Part shown: positions 1 through 15,398 of the stretch, piece by piece
How the letters are laid out: the number at the start of each line of letters is the position of its first letter
Numbering within the stretch: the first letter of the stretch is position 1
Source of the DNA: Holosporaceae bacterium
Lineage (GTDB): Bacteria; Pseudomonadota; Alphaproteobacteria; UBA3830
Assembly (NCBI GenBank): GCA_031257475.1
Contig: JAIROP010000012.1
Span: 1-36,235 of the forward strand
Direction: 5' to 3'
DNA length: 36,235 nucleotides
Made by a program: the position numbers and the translations under genes
The notes under the pieces: generated by a model
Database searches by the model: none
Told to the model about the DNA's origin: nothing
What the model saw: the letters and a program-made list of their open reading frames with translations, nothing else

Positions 1-392
1 AGCAGCGAAGAAATGCGATCCGGAATATTCATCATGCCGTCGCGGATAATTCGACCTTTAGCGAACATGGCATTGCGTACTTTTTCTGCCGACACCAATT
101 CTCCCATTTCGGATTTGACTTTTGCTTCCAGCAGTTTCCCGCGCTCGATTTCGTTTTTCAGTTTTGTTTTTACGAGAAGGTCGTGCATTTCATTCCGCTG
201 CTCATAGGTTCCGCCGCCTTTCCTCTGCAGCGGAAGATTTGGATCGCGTTGTCTCGTAAGGACTGAATTTGCAGTTTGCTCATCAATCATGCCGTTGACG
301 AGTTTGATTTTTCCTTCGGATATGAGCTTACCCACATATTGCTTCGAAAATCCCTGTCGCCGAGCCCACTCTGCCTGTGAAATTAGAGACAT
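1..392 (-). CDS. Phage terminase small subunit, C-terminus cut by the window edge
   Basis: An open frame starts at ATG 392 and runs off the left edge (about 130 codons visible). The start has a strong GAGGAGG site 7 bases upstream, inside the end of the preceding methyltransferase remnant, and overlaps it by 10 bases, a typical phage operon junction. The protein begins MSLISQAEWARRQGFSKQYV, a helix-turn-helix of the kind found at the N-terminus of small terminase subunits, followed by a charged, probably coiled region and the segment GELVSAEKVRNAMFAKGRII, which I recognise from alphaproteobacterial prophage small terminases. In phages this subunit binds the packaging site and recruits the large ATPase/nuclease subunit, which would be expected further left, outside the window. 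Family assignment is from memory of such proteins. The visible part shows no disruption. Confidence 0.72.
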   Translation of the reverse strand, partial: MSLISQAEWARRQGFSKQYVGKLISEGKIKLVNGMIDEQTANSVLTRQRDPNLPLQRKGGGTYEQRNEMHDLLVKTKLKNEIERGKLLEAKVKSEMGELVSAEKVRNAMFAKGRIIRDGMMNIPDRISSL

Positions 393-1056
393 GATGTAAC
401 CTCCTCAAATGTTTTTCCGGTCGATTCCAAAATCGCTTTTTGGTTTGTATATTTCTGCCAACGGCGAATTATTGTATCCACATATTTTGTGTCCAATTCC
501 ATCATGCAACATCTGCGATCCGTTTCTTTGCAGGCAATGAGAGTCGTTCCGCTTCCTCCGAACAAATCCAAAATCAATTCACCATGGAGAGAGCAGTCGA
601 GAATTGCATCAGCCACGAGTTTTACCGGCTTAACCGTCGGATGCATTTTGAGCAAATCACTTTCCTGATCCCGAGAAGAAAAGCTATTCATTCCCGCATA
701 ATCCCAAACATTTGTTCGATAGCGATCATGCTGGCCAAGTTCGAAGTTATTCGTATGTTTCGCCGTTCCGTTTTTAAAAACGAAAATCAATTCGTGTTTG
801 CTGCGATAAAAACTTCCCATACCGCCGTTGTCTTTATTCCAAACGCAGAGCTGTTTGAATTCTGTGTAGGTGGCGCGACTGGCGACCATGATTTCATAGA
901 TGTGTTTCCAATCCATACAGTGATAATGAATCGATCCGTCTTTTGAAACCGCAACAAGATTTTTGGATTTGCCCTATAGAGATATCGATGATTAGATAAA
1001 ACTCTTGAATATTCAACAAAATCGTCAATTTTGAACGATGTTTCTGATAGAGACAT
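383..1056 (-). pseudogene. Truncated, frameshifted phage DNA methyltransferase
   Basis: The C-terminal part (frame open from 973 down to the TAA at 383-385) carries HPTVKPVKLV and DLFGGSGTTLIAC, the SAM-binding end of beta-class N6-adenine/N4-cytosine methyltransferases, in the order seen in phage ParB-methyltransferase proteins. Upstream residues (SKDGSIHYHCMDWKHIYEIM) are also family-like but are preceded in frame by a TAG at 974-976. The likely continuation (FVEYSRVLSN) lies in another frame up to an ATG at 1056, as if about 32 bases had been inserted near 971-1003. The catalytic DPPY-type motif and any ParB domain, expected further upstream, are absent, and I see no more homology beyond about 1060. 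The gene is therefore inferred to be dead. It sits directly before the terminase gene in the same phage operon. Confidence 0.72.
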
Positions 1057-1128
1057 AACTCATTGTAAAATCAGTGGATTTTCCGCATTTTGCTATACTT
1101 ATAGGGCAGTCCCCACGAAAAGCAGAAC

Positions 1129-1157
1129 TAGACAAAATCCTTCTGCTGCGGTATAAT
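1129..1157 (+). promoter_or_regulatory. Sigma-70-type promoter for the NrdD-like/activase operon
   Basis: TAGACA (1129-1134) and TATAAT (1152-1157) are separated by 17 bases, five of six and six of six matches to consensus. The predicted start is near 1164, about 22 bases before the first ATG. The site lies just right of the point where the prophage remnant ends, so the operon keeps its own promoter. Confidence 0.7.
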
Positions 1158-1185
1158 AAAATCTTTCAATTGGTGGAGGGAAGCT

Positions 1186-1371
1186 ATGAAGGAAACGGCA
1201 ACAGTGGAATTACGGGATGAAGAACGCAGCAGGTGTGAGATATGGACCCGTGTGATGGGTTATCATCGGCCGGTGGATGATTTTAATATTGGGAAAAAAG
1301 GTGAACAAGCGGAAAGAGTATGTTTTGATGAAAAGCAAACATGCGGAGGCTGGGTATTCAAGGATGAATAG
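1186..1371 (+). CDS. Small stand-alone NrdD-like protein (NRDD C-terminal domain)
   Basis: This 61-residue protein has an ATG with a GGTGGAGGG ribosome binding site and a good promoter, so it is a real short gene. Residues 17-39 (CEIWTRVMGYHRPVDDFNIG) and the following GKKGEQAERV resemble the extreme C-terminus of anaerobic ribonucleotide reductase NrdD, next to its glycyl-radical loop and zinc site. Similar proteins of 50-60 residues occur alone beside NrdG-type activases in other proteobacteria. The rest of NrdD, including the catalytic barrel, is not encoded here. The next gene's GTG overlaps this stop by one base, so the two are translationally coupled and probably act together. Whether it takes part in nucleotide reduction is unknown. 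Extra cysteines near the end (VCFDE, TCGGW) could bind metal. Confidence 0.68.
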   Translation: MKETATVELRDEERSRCEIWTRVMGYHRPVDDFNIGKKGEQAERVCFDEKQTCGGWVFKDE

Positions 1372-2051
1372 TGGGTAAAACATTATTTGTTGGAGGGGTA
1401 GTTGCCCTCACCACCATAGATTATCCAGGGCATCTTGCAACTGTGGTGTTTTTCCAGGGCTGCAATTGGCGGTGTTGTTATTGTCATAATAAACATCTGC
1501 AAACCATATTGCCGACAGAATCGCTTCCCTGGGAAGACGTATTAAATATGTTGAGGGCCCGCAAGGGGTTCGTGGAAGCTGTCGTGTTCGGTGGAGGAGA
1601 GCCGCTGGTTCAGAGTTGTCTTTTGGAGGCAGTGGATGAAGTCAAGAGAATGGGATTTAAGGTAGGGGTTCATACATCAGGAGCCTATCCCAGTAGGTTT
1701 GCTCAAATACTACCATTTGTAGATTGGGTGGGTTTTGATGTAAAGTACGCATTTAGTAACTACGAGGAAATAACCTGCACAAAAGGAAGTGGGCAAGCGG
1801 CTTTGGATAGCCTGAACGCATTGGTGGCGTCAGGGGTATCATTTGAAGCCAGAATGACGGTCTATGAAAAAATGAAAATGGATATAATCATAGCGGCGCT
1901 GAAGGAAATCGCAGAGCTCGGTGTAAAAGCGGTGGTTCTACAAAAATGTAGAGATAGGGAAGAGAATATAGTTGAACATCCAATCTTTTCTGATAAACTT
2001 CTACTAGAGGAAGTGGCTAAGTACTTTGAGAGCTTCCATGTCAGGGGGTAG
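1371..2051 (+). CDS. nrdG: Radical SAM activase, NrdG-like (NrdG2 type)
   Basis: The 226-residue protein has the radical SAM motif CxxxCxxC at C31, C35 and C38 (GCNWRCCYCHN) and the SAM-binding GGGEP at about 74-78. These define an enzyme that cleaves S-adenosylmethionine with a 4Fe-4S cluster. The N-terminal order (GGVVALTTIDYPG, then FFQGCNWRC) is that of anaerobic ribonucleotide reductase activating proteins, in particular the NrdG2 subgroup. It starts with GTG at 1371, overlapping the stop of the NrdD-like gene (TAGTG), and is followed about 70 bases later by rpsT. The true target could be a reductase elsewhere in the genome, or the small coupled protein. The radical SAM call is secure; the substrate is inferred. 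Confidence 0.82.
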   Translation: MGKTLFVGGVVALTTIDYPGHLATVVFFQGCNWRCCYCHNKHLQTILPTESLPWEDVLNMLRARKGFVEAVVFGGGEPLVQSCLLEAVDEVKRMGFKVGVHTSGAYPSRFAQILPFVDWVGFDVKYAFSNYEEITCTKGSGQAALDSLNALVASGVSFEARMTVYEKMKMDIIIAALKEIAELGVKAVVLQKCRDREENIVEHPIFSDKLLLEEVAKYFESFHVRG

Positions 2052-2121
2052 TTTTCCCTTTGTTTCATGGAGTAAAGATCAAAGACTAGGCACAGAGAGA
2101 GTAAGATAATGTAGGAGTAAA

Positions 2122-2376
2122 ATGGCCAATCATAGATCAGCGTTAAAAAGGATGAGGCAGAGTGAGAGGAGAGCCTCACTGAATAAAAGTCGAATTAGTC
2201 GTATAAAAACCTTCGTGAAGAAGTTTATTGCGAGTCTTGGATCCGGGAATGAGTCGTCCAGCTTTTCTTCGGTTCAATCGGAGATTCATCGGGGGGTAAC
2301 AAAGGGTGTTTTGCATCGAAATACCGCCGATAGAAAAATCTCCCGCCTCAGCAGGTTGTTGAAATCAGCAAAATGA
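2122..2376 (+). CDS. rpsT: 30S ribosomal protein S20
   Basis: An 84-residue basic protein begins MANHRSALKRMRQSERR, the characteristic S20 start, and ends RKISRLSRLLKSAK. S20 binds 16S rRNA in the body of the small subunit and helps early assembly. Length matches the family (about 85-90). The ATG is preceded by TAGGAGTAAA, a good ribosome binding site. It lies 31 bases before dnaA, an order widely conserved in alphaproteobacteria, so the two are probably cotranscribed. No clear promoter was found in the short gap after the activase gene, although AT-rich sequence at 2102-2110 could supply a -10 box. Confidence 0.96.
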   Translation: MANHRSALKRMRQSERRASLNKSRISRIKTFVKKFIASLGSGNESSSFSSVQSEIHRGVTKGVLHRNTADRKISRLSRLLKSAK

Positions 2377-2407
2377 AGGGTCCCGTTCCGGTAGATGGGA
2401 ATTTGGG

Positions 2408-3769
2408 ATGGACAAGTCAGACTTAGCAAGAATATGGGCTGTTGTTTATCGCAGTTTACAGTATGAGTTTGGAAGTCCCATAGTAAACAGCTGGATATCA
2501 CCATTGTCTGTGGACAAATTGCATTCTGGGGTGCTGTATGTAAAAGCTCCCAGCCTGTTTTTGCGGGACTGGGTGGTGAACAACTATCAGGATGCCATAC
2601 TAAGGTTCTGTCAAAAGGAAAGCAAAGAAATTAGAGCCCTGGAAATTTTTGTGGCGTCCGTAAAGCCGACTGTTATCGAAAAAACTGATTCGCGAAAGTC
2701 TATGCCGCCAAAGCAGGAGGAGACGCAGCTAAAATCCGAGGAGATTTTAGGAATTCCTCTGGATCCCAAGTTTACATTCGAAAATTTCGTGGTTGGAAAA
2801 CCCAATGAATTTGCCTATGCAGCTACACTGCGGGTGGCAGAGTCGGACAAAGTGGCATTCAATCCCTTATTTTTGTATGGCGCTGTGGGGTTGGGCAAAA
2901 CACATCTAATGCATGCCATCGCTTGGAATATAAGAGCAAGATCTCCCAAAAGGAACGTGGTATACATGTCCGCAGAGAAGTTCATGTACCATTTTATAAA
3001 ATCGGTGAGATACAAAGACATGATGGCGTTCAAGGAGCAGTTTCGCGCGGTAGAAGTGTTGATGATAGATGATATACAATTCATCTGTGGAAAAGATTCA
3101 ACACAGGAGGAGTTTTTCCATACGTTTAATGCTTTGGTGGATAATAATCGGCAGGTGATCGTTTCTGCAGATAAGTCTCCATCGGATCTGGATGGCATGG
3201 AGGATAGGTTAAAATCCAGACTTGGATGGGGGCTGGTGGCTGATATCCATCCAACCAATTATGAGCTGAGATTGGGGATTCTCCAATCAAAAGCAGCCTC
3301 CTGTTCCATTAAAATTCCCGGAAAAGTTTTGGAATTTGTGGCTCACAAAATAACAGCTAACATAAGAGAATTGGAGGGGGCACTTAATCGCATAGTTGCC
3401 AATGCCATGTTTGTGGGATGCGAAATTACCGTAGAAAGTGCCCGCGAGGTTCTGTCAGATCTGCTGCGCACCAACGACAGAAGGATAACCATTGAGGATA
3501 TCCAAAAAAAAGTTGCATCGCATTATTCAATCAAGCTAAGCGACATGTCCTCCACCAGAAGGGCAAGACAGGTTTCCTTGCCACGGCAGGTTGCCATGTA
3601 CCTAGCTAAAAGGCTTACGTCCATGTCATTGCCTGAGATCGGTAAAAGTTTTGGGGGACGAGATCATACCACTGTGTTGCATGCCGTCAGGAAAATTGAG
3701 GAATCTGTGAAAGAGAATCCTAGTTTGGCGGAAGATCTGCGGCTGCTGGGAGATATCCTGACAGGATAG
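2408..3769 (+). CDS. dnaA: Chromosomal replication initiator DnaA
   Basis: DnaA binds DnaA boxes at oriC, opens the duplex and loads DnaB helicase. The 453-residue protein has every domain. Residues 1-80 form the N-terminal helicase/DiaA interaction domain. A short linker follows (about 85-120). The AAA+ core carries Walker A GAVGLGKTH (158-166) and Walker B VLMIDD (217-222). The C-terminal DNA-binding domain carries the signature GGRDHTTVLHAVRKI (416-430). It starts with ATG after GGGAATTTGGG and follows rpsT closely. I see no cluster of DnaA boxes in the window, which fits alphaproteobacteria, where oriC usually lies elsewhere (near hemE or parAB). Function is certain from the motifs. Confidence 0.98.
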   Translation: MDKSDLARIWAVVYRSLQYEFGSPIVNSWISPLSVDKLHSGVLYVKAPSLFLRDWVVNNYQDAILRFCQKESKEIRALEIFVASVKPTVIEKTDSRKSMPPKQEETQLKSEEILGIPLDPKFTFENFVVGKPNEFAYAATLRVAESDKVAFNPLFLYGAVGLGKTHLMHAIAWNIRARSPKRNVVYMSAEKFMYHFIKSVRYKDMMAFKEQFRAVEVLMIDDIQFICGKDSTQEEFFHTFNALVDNNRQVIVSADKSPSDLDGMEDRLKSRLGWGLVADIHPTNYELRLGILQSKAASCSIKIPGKVLEFVAHKITANIRELEGALNRIVANAMFVGCEITVESAREVLSDLLRTNDRRITIEDIQKKVASHYSIKLSDMSSTRRARQVSLPRQVAMYLAKRLTSMSLPEIGKSFGGRDHTTVLHAVRKIEESVKENPSLAEDLRLLGDILTG

Positions 3770-13000: not shown

Positions 13001-13130
13001 ATCAAAATACGTCGTTATTGCTGAATTGACAATAGAACAACCGTAGAAGCGATTAAAAATAGATTGAGTCGTTAATACAAATTTTTACCTGCAGGCAATA
13101 TATTTATACCCGGTATGAGGGAGACGGGTA

Positions 13131-15398
13131 GTGGTAAAGCTTTTCCATTATTTCTACAGCATATTTTTGCTATGCGGGCACCTGGCATTTGCGGAGCTTC
13201 CACTGAACGTTTTTTTAGATGACAGTAGTCAAGATGCCGATAAGCCATTTTTGCTTTTTTCAGGTTGGAAGCCACCAGAAGATCGAAGCTCTCCCGCATC
13301 ACTATCCCTTGATTGCTCTGTTTTCTGGGGAGCGCTTATTTTGCACACTGGATATCTAGAAAGACTTTATATTCATGGGAATACAACAAGAGACGCAGGA
13401 AATAATTTTGTTCCTGGAGACAACGTAATGAGATTGCTCGTCAGTTTGTTTGATAGTCCAGCAGGCTTCGGAATAAAACCTACAACTTATAATCTCTTTA
13501 GAAATTCAAACACTAAGAATCGGTGCATAGAACAGGTTGCAAAATGTTATATAAGTATAACAATGCTACGAGCACTCATGGAAGAAGGGTGCTCTGTCAG
13601 ATGTGCCCCCAACCCCAGCCCCAAAAAAGGAGAAAGCAAACAACAAATAGTACAAGTTAAGGGCGCTGAAGACGCTGAATGGATGGATTTTCGTATATTT
13701 TGGGATGGAGAACAGCAAGTAGGTTATCTGTCTAATCAAGCGCAGATAATTGTGTCGGCATTAGTAGATGAAGGAAAATACGAATATGAAAAATACCTCT
13801 GTGAACAAATTGTATTAGCTTTTGTATTCAATGTTTTGGTTAGCAGAGACGATCTTCATACTTTCTATAACGAAGTCCATGCAAAAATTGCCAAAATAAA
13901 CAATTTCAAAAACCTGCCAAGCACCCAAGACTATTCGGCTGCATTTAATAAAGCAATTCGAAGTCTAGAACAAGCTATAAAAGAAGCGTCTGGCTTGGAT
14001 GCCGCAGTTGCTGGATTTAAGCTACTTGTTAGTCCTAAAAATTTCCACGAAATTCAGGCCATGCTCCTAAAAACTAAGGACCAGGCACAAATTCTTTCTG
14101 AAGTAAATAAGAGAAAGAGGGCAAAACCTGATTTGTGTAGAATTGATGCGATGAAAGCAAAAGTACGCCGCGACTTTTTTGCTCCTCATGTTGAACATCT
14201 AGACGACCGTCTGGCTGCAATGATGTTTGAAGATCTTTGTAGAATTGCGAAACCTTTAATAGCAGCCGCAATGTATCCAGATACTCCGGTTCAAAATAAT
14301 TTTTGTTCCAGGCTTTCTTTCCTTGCTGACCAACCGCCCGTAGTATTATCACCAAACAGACCTTTTCAAGATTGCGTAGAGACTTCGATTCGGCACTTCT
14401 TTAATTTGTGCCTGGGGCAAAGAATGATCGATCATTTTTCTTCAAGTCCAGATTCGACAGGACAGGAACTTGTAGAACAACTTCGACGCGCCATAGCAGA
14501 ATATTGTGCCAAAGCAAGAGAAGGACATGTCCTAGCGACAAGAACAGAAACAGACAGAATTCAAGAGTTAGTTGCTTTTTTTAGAAAATATTGGAGAGAT
14601 GTAAACAATGGAGAGATAGAGGCTAGAACGGCCTGGAACAGCGTGGTTTTTCACTTGGACGGTGTTGCGTATCGGGATGGAGATACAGGAAATGAAATTC
14701 AAAGTGGATATACCTCTATAGTTAATGCTATTTGTGGCGTTCTTGGATTACCCATACCAGATGCCGCTAATAGGAATGCAGCTATGGCAGAAATTTTGAA
14801 GATATTCTCTGCCTGGAGACCTGATAAAGTGGTTATTACCTGTCCTGAACAACTTGCCGTGGGTACTGAAACCGGAATTGTGCGGTTTTTGGTGAATGAC
14901 AATGAATATTTTGCCCTAAATGTGGGCAGAGGTCATTCTGTGGTCGATTTACCTGGTACTGATTATGTTGACTATAATACCCGATATCATGGGATGAATA
15001 TTCACTGGTCATTCTTGGGAAGTTTTTTTGCTTCCCCCCGTTCGCCCTTCTGCGACAGTCGTAGTGTTTATCAGCAAATGTTTGGTCTGGCCTGTCGGGT
15101 TTGCCAAAGTCCAGTTATCCAGAGATTTTTGGCCTGCGCCCCAAAATCTACGGAAAGAGACATGTGGTTCTCCGTTTTGTCGAATATTGTTAGAAGTTAT
15201 GGGGGCAAGCTTGTAATTACAAGGCCTGTGGGCAGTGACCTCAACTTGACAGAATTCGAAACTGTAGAGAAGGTTGTACTGTCTAGGGGGGGTATTTCCG
15301 GAAACAGGAGGCATCCTCACTCTTCCCTCAATGGTCAAAGAACTTTCCGTGGAATATGGAGCACGGGCAAAAAAAGTAGATCTGTCAAGATGCTCTAA
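13131..15398 (+). CDS. Large secreted protein, N-terminal part, unknown function; frame breaks at a G7 tract
   Basis: This 755-residue product starts at GTG 13131 (GAGGGAGACGGG upstream) with a clear signal peptide (MVKLFHYFYSIFLLCGHLAF, then AE), so it is exported. No family is recognised. Residues about 270-330 are Lys/Gln-rich and probably helical. Segments worth noting are DCVETSIRHFFNLCLG (about 413-428) and a region near 500-540 (WNSVVFHLDGVAYRD, SGYTSIVNAICGVLGL). Several cysteine pairs suggest disulfides. The coding frame appears to end in meaning at a run of seven G (15286-15292): after it, 34 basic residues of odd composition follow, while the +1 frame continues as a repeat domain. 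With six G the protein would be one chain of 1119 residues ending at 16491. A two-frame gene, phase variation or a sequencing error are the alternatives. Confidence 0.72.
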   Translation: MVKLFHYFYSIFLLCGHLAFAELPLNVFLDDSSQDADKPFLLFSGWKPPEDRSSPASLSLDCSVFWGALILHTGYLERLYIHGNTTRDAGNNFVPGDNVMRLLVSLFDSPAGFGIKPTTYNLFRNSNTKNRCIEQVAKCYISITMLRALMEEGCSVRCAPNPSPKKGESKQQIVQVKGAEDAEWMDFRIFWDGEQQVGYLSNQAQIIVSALVDEGKYEYEKYLCEQIVLAFVFNVLVSRDDLHTFYNEVHAKIAKINNFKNLPSTQDYSAAFNKAIRSLEQAIKEASGLDAAVAGFKLLVSPKNFHEIQAMLLKTKDQAQILSEVNKRKRAKPDLCRIDAMKAKVRRDFFAPHVEHLDDRLAAMMFEDLCRIAKPLIAAAMYPDTPVQNNFCSRLSFLADQPPVVLSPNRPFQDCVETSIRHFFNLCLGQRMIDHFSSSPDSTGQELVEQLRRAIAEYCAKAREGHVLATRTETDRIQELVAFFRKYWRDVNNGEIEARTAWNSVVFHLDGVAYRDGDTGNEIQSGYTSIVNAICGVLGLPIPDAANRNAAMAEILKIFSAWRPDKVVITCPEQLAVGTETGIVRFLVNDNEYFALNVGRGHSVVDLPGTDYVDYNTRYHGMNIHWSFLGSFFASPRSPFCDSRSVYQQMFGLACRVCQSPVIQRFLACAPKSTERDMWFSVLSNIVRSYGGKLVITRPVGSDLNLTEFETVEKVVLSRGGISGNRRHPHSSLNGQRTFRGIWSTGKKSRSVKML

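Follow-up and report, generated by a model that had tools for sequence, protein, structure and literature searches.

The window analysed here, a 36,235-nucleotide stretch of DNA, is contig 23 of a draft genome of 920,616 bases in 42 contigs, which is probably metagenome-assembled. It carries a gene for a secreted repeat protein whose reading frame breaks at a run of seven Gs, laid out as follows.

13117..13123, + strand: GAGGGAG before the GTG start, a candidate ribosome-binding site proposed from the sequence
13131..15398, + strand: upstream frame of 755 codons, with a GTG start and its stop at 15396-15398
13131..13196, + strand: candidate secretion signal VVKLFHYFYSIFLLCGHLAFAE, predicted from its hydrophobic core
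15276..15315, + strand: interval of the frame change in the codon-usage scan
15286..15292, + strand: G7 tract, site of the frame break
15292..16491, + strand: downstream part of the same gene, ~400 codons, a predicted leucine-rich-repeat-like solenoid
15293..15398, + strand: what remains of the upstream frame up to its stop, out of frame and meaningless

The upstream frame opens with a signal-peptide-like segment, continues into a domain that carries the conserved motif C-x-E-x-x-[IVL]-R-H, and stops soon past the frame break. The downstream open reading frame is listed as 15274-16491 (405 codons), opening at a TTG codon at 15274. Both frames, and the G7 run at exactly 15286-15292, are present as the original prediction described them.

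Two independent lines of evidence bear on whether these frames belong together. The same genome holds a paralogue (contig C28, L004) in a single unbroken open frame at 237-3719, 1161 codons long, to which both window frames align in order and across the join. The upstream frame is matched from its signal peptide as far as the join, at ~43-52% identity, with a near-identical counterpart of the VVKLFHYFYSIFLLCGHLAFAE signal; the match of the downstream frame begins just past the join and continues through the repeats, at 33-49%. In a codon-usage scan, with ten intact genes of the window as its training set, the first frame is favoured up to the G7 and the second beyond it; the best change points fall at 15276-15315. 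The tail of the upstream frame past the tract has no coding signal, in keeping with the earlier view that it is meaningless. The probability that a non-coding frame would by chance stay open for 398 codons is ~8e-12. Since both frames match one unbroken paralogue and codon usage switches at the tract, the 13131 and 15274 frames are confirmed, at the level of sequence, as one gene broken at the G7, as had been proposed. In related genomes, several of them named Holosporales, the homologues fuse both parts into single frames of ~790-1567 codons; the homologues are thus intact where the window copy is interrupted. A search of genome contigs and viral contigs returned no close orthologue of either paralogue: the nearest orthologue-type matches to the window gene are partial, at 40% identity, and a search with a four-sequence alignment gave distant relatives only, several of which are Holosporales or Alphaproteobacteria MAGs.

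The window gene is one member of a family of large secreted proteins of Holosporales-like symbionts. Its members share a signal peptide and an N-terminal region with a C-x-E...R-H motif, where the invariant positions include C415, E417 and H422 (numbered as in the window protein), and many carry C-terminal repeats. The window protein has no Pfam or NCBIfam family match, and its N-terminal part gave no confident structural model (pLDDT 38). The C-terminal part is modelled by AlphaFold as a beta-rich solenoid (pLDDT 81), and its best PDB match in Foldseek is the bacterial leucine-rich-repeat (LRR) protein 4fs7 (E 6e-4), with a poor global superposition. The downstream part may share with bacterial LRR surface proteins of this kind its predicted beta-rich repeat solenoid, but the window protein differs from them in the low TM score of 0.23, in the lack of a family match and in the lack of any LRR Pfam hit in the window part. 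The protein may act outside the cell as a host-facing binding protein. A congener's member of the family (L007:871-3503; G009:C149) is also split into two frames, with no G run at the site of the break. Loss therefore occurs in this family without poly-G and is not peculiar to the window locus.

How unusual the tract itself is was judged from tract counts across the genome, obtained by pattern search plus chosen stretches and set against expectations from Markov models of the window (second and third order). There are 20 runs of G/C with a length of exactly seven, where 17-30 are expected. An excess over chance starts at lengths of at least 10, for which 13 runs were observed against 0-0.75 expected, although some of these, lying at contig ends, may be assembly artefacts. 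The G7 is therefore neither longer than chance allows nor within the hypermutable range. The window tract aside, this genome has 18 mid-gene runs of 7-10 G that lie in open frames, taken here as frames with no stop for 60 codons or more to either side of the run; the G10 of trmD is among them. At the window G7, the only spanning frame that is this open on both sides is antisense. Because hypermutable or miscalled tracts would often be out of frame, these 18 runs argue against base-calling error and against general instability at such lengths. In published work, the cut-off for poly-G tracts in Campylobacter is 7 or more; switching has been demonstrated there from 8 upwards, and the same source warns that the mutation rate of some tracts may be too low (PMC6321876). 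In Neisseria the cut-off is 9 or more (PMC5953494). Being at chance frequency and at or below these cut-offs, the G7 is a credible site for a single slippage and a poor candidate for a high-rate switch. Nor is the tract conserved at this position among homologues: at the aligned junction the paralogue is free of G runs, its own G7 lying elsewhere, in the repeat region and in frame, and in other members of the family G runs are few and lie elsewhere in the gene.

We favour, with a probability of roughly 0.6, a plain, one-off loss-of-function frameshift in one of two gene copies. A single slippage mutation in an ordinary G run of chance length, at the junction of the N-terminal region and the repeats, would have removed the repeat domain and become effectively fixed, and the product would be a truncated secreted protein of 755 residues, or nothing useful. 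The intact paralogue elsewhere in the genome would relax selection on the broken copy. No other stop or shift occurs across the ~1119 codons of the joined gene, which indicates that the lesion is recent; we infer a recent frame change that abolishes display of the repeats and involves no high-rate switching. With the frameshift pseudogenes of reduced symbiont genomes the window gene has in common that it is a duplicated secreted gene outside the housekeeping set, hit once and recently, with an intact paralogue and a broken family member in a congener; it differs in that its lesion falls on a G run.

Some features speak against a plain frameshift: the break lies exactly on a slippage-prone run in a gene for a secreted repeat protein, far longer poly-G runs occur in other surface-type genes, and the downstream frame is fully preserved, as expected of a gene that is switched off but maintained. 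The same features speak for a phase-variable switch, in which slippage in the G7 would reversibly add or remove the repeat domain and the assembled state would be OFF. Further points in its favour are the G7 that the intact paralogue has at a different place in its repeat region, and the lineage's habit of keeping long poly-G runs in the leaders of pilin-like genes, with lengths mixed between copies. Against it stand the chance-level length of the tract, the other 7-10 G tracts that are in frame, the lack of conservation in the paralogue or family, a length at or below those at which switching is published, and a position in mid-gene, whereas the long tracts of this genome sit near gene starts. 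Like the contingency genes of the Campylobacter and Neisseria phasomes (PMC6321876, PMC5953494), the window gene has a G run inside a frame of secreted or surface type, where a change in length would shift the frame and, the two frames joining across the tract, alter expression; its tract differs in its marginal length, mid-gene position and chance frequency, and is known from one assembled length. The sortase-pilus switch of Bifidobacterium breve has a similar layout, for there too a G-tract parts the two halves of one surface gene into two frames; that tract, however, is longer, with G11 and G12 mixed in the population and length variants measured (PMC9187656), and the gene makes pili. The mutS gene near the split gene is intact, as originally noted, with all five Pfam domains present. 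We consider a reversible switch at this locus unlikely. The original prediction of phase variation has thus fared unevenly: the use of poly-G in the lineage has gained strong indirect support from another gene family, and for this particular G7 the support is weak.

It is doubtful, for the same tract, that the G7 is a slow, low-rate member of a lineage-wide poly-G contingency system in Holosporales-like symbionts, with a library of leader tracts in TadE/TadF-like genes as its high-rate core and with slippage varying host-facing secreted and pilin-like proteins alike. The proposed core is itself better founded. In the genome of the window, four genes for TadE/TadF-like pseudopilins (L093:531-542 on C21, L097:3544-3557 on C32, L098:4374-4387 on C33 and L101:5040-5066 on C38) have long runs just upstream, namely G12, G14, G14 and a G10/C17 tangle at a contig end, which adjoin on its upstream side a conserved GAILIEF segment near the gene starts. 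These four runs are candidate translational phase switches. The proteins of this family are ~250 residues long and resemble TadE/TadF pseudopilins at a level below Pfam cut-offs (TadF E 8e-5). A profile of the family found matches in 38 of 61 genomes, with up to 42 copies in one, and a run of at least nine Gs lies close upstream of the match in 34 of the 52 copies sampled.

The congeners G008 and G009 show the pattern in its most regular form (L172-L191, L210, L232-L239). The motif CAAC-Gn-CAGGCTC occurs there at 31 places, as G11 three times, G12 23 times, G13 four times and once with an interrupting T; the reversed control pattern does not occur in either genome. Where copies were examined, a G11 run puts the upstream ATG in the reading frame of the gene, and a G12 or G13 run does not. 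Copies that are in frame have a leader of prepilin type, which reads like MLPKIMTVMQRGGGQALRRARIG/AIFIEF and has Glu at position +5, and on this reading the G run encodes glycines in a segment predicted to be cut off, with prepilin cleavage probably falling just downstream of the run. Among 18 copies from G008, the median pairwise identity is 33%, most are out of frame and none contains a stop codon, so that they look silent but maintained. The leader run recurs in other genera of the same bacterial family (L204, L207, L208 and L244-L263, in G016, G020, G022 and G036), mostly within G7-G10, with G9 the commonest, and often without an in-frame ATG, the start codons there being assigned by inference; in G016, the run is G10 in one copy and G7, at the corresponding place, in its neighbour. 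Each of the five genomes tested has both a prepilin peptidase and a secretion ATPase of the T2SSE family. Taken on sequence evidence, the pseudopilin leader tracts are a strong candidate for a poly-G contingency system, with the reservations that the length variation seen here is variation between paralogues and that assembled lengths above ~10 call for caution (PMC9187656). Several contigs in relatives (L193, L197, L202, L203 and L205) stop no more than tens of bases from the 5' end of a pseudopilin gene, as if the leader G run had broken the assembly.

Taken alone, the split gene makes a modest case, a duplicated secreted gene with a single frameshift. Testing it exposed an apparent phase-variation system in small-genome, symbiont-like alphaproteobacteria that is, as far as we searched, unreported. 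Its scale is that of a library: relatives hold dozens of diverse TadE/TadF-like pseudopilin genes per genome, with runs of ~7-14 Gs that shortly precede the predicted site of prepilin cleavage, and most of the copies examined are out of frame with the start codon yet free of stops. If real, this would amount to a set of pilus-like surface proteins that can be turned on and off, in bacteria whose probable home is in or on protists, and to phase variation that serves symbiosis rather than escape from animal immunity. A limited literature search, with subscription journals mostly uncovered, found no earlier report of poly-G phase variation in Rickettsiales or Holosporales, in endosymbionts or in Tad pili, and a 2025 review of Holosporales does not mention phase variation, homopolymers or pili.

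Returning to the break in the window, an error of assembly or base calling, with the real gene intact, would also account for a frame that changes at a homopolymer. The draft is fragmented, poly-G runs commonly suffer length errors, and Illumina trouble at G-tracts is documented (PMC9187656). Seven bases are nevertheless short for a length error in short reads, and the 18 in-frame mid-gene tracts of the same assembly lead us to reject general homopolymer miscalling. An error confined to this one tract is improbable, and less likely than the original prediction allowed.

At an in-frame G7, slippage of a tRNA or of RNA polymerase is possible in principle, and programmed ribosomal frameshifting or transcriptional slippage would then yield the full protein. 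In symbionts, the known cases of polymerase slippage are mainly those at long A/T runs. A programmed site should be conserved, and here it is not: the full-length homologues examined, the paralogue included, are each read in a single frame and have no shift site at this position, which leaves the suggestion of programmed frameshifting unsupported and very improbable, and a conserved site of this kind is rejected. Last, two separate genes with independent starts are hardly credible and are rejected by the continuous paralogue, for although a TTG codon at 15274 opens the second frame, it has no independent start signal that we could find and no properly spaced ribosome-binding site upstream, the homology of the second frame starts only after the tract, and homologues fuse the two parts.

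Several other observations concern the surroundings of the gene and poly-G runs elsewhere. After the broken gene, at 16500-16900 of the window, short CTTTCGAAAC repeats in both orientations surround a short open frame for which a Pfam search gave no convincing support; together they are possibly the remnant of a mobile element. Elsewhere in the genome, a G15 (L098:3310-3324 on C33) and a G10 (L086:4014-4023 on C3) have similar flanks, and each precedes a large reading frame. By eye, the products of both frames resemble TadG-like secreted proteins; the frame after the G15 is 1099 codons long and its protein has no Pfam hit. In families f2 and f3 of the order (G037, G040-G042 and others; L212-L231) there are up to 55 runs of at least 10 G per genome, and the profile search found no match to the pseudopilin family in these genomes. 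Some of their runs lie near gene starts. In the genome of the window, G10 runs also lie near the starts of serS (L096:824-833), trmD (L092:1315-1324) and a gene for an FkbM-type methyltransferase (L091:3150-3159), and those of serS and trmD are in frame, an odd placement for essential-type genes.
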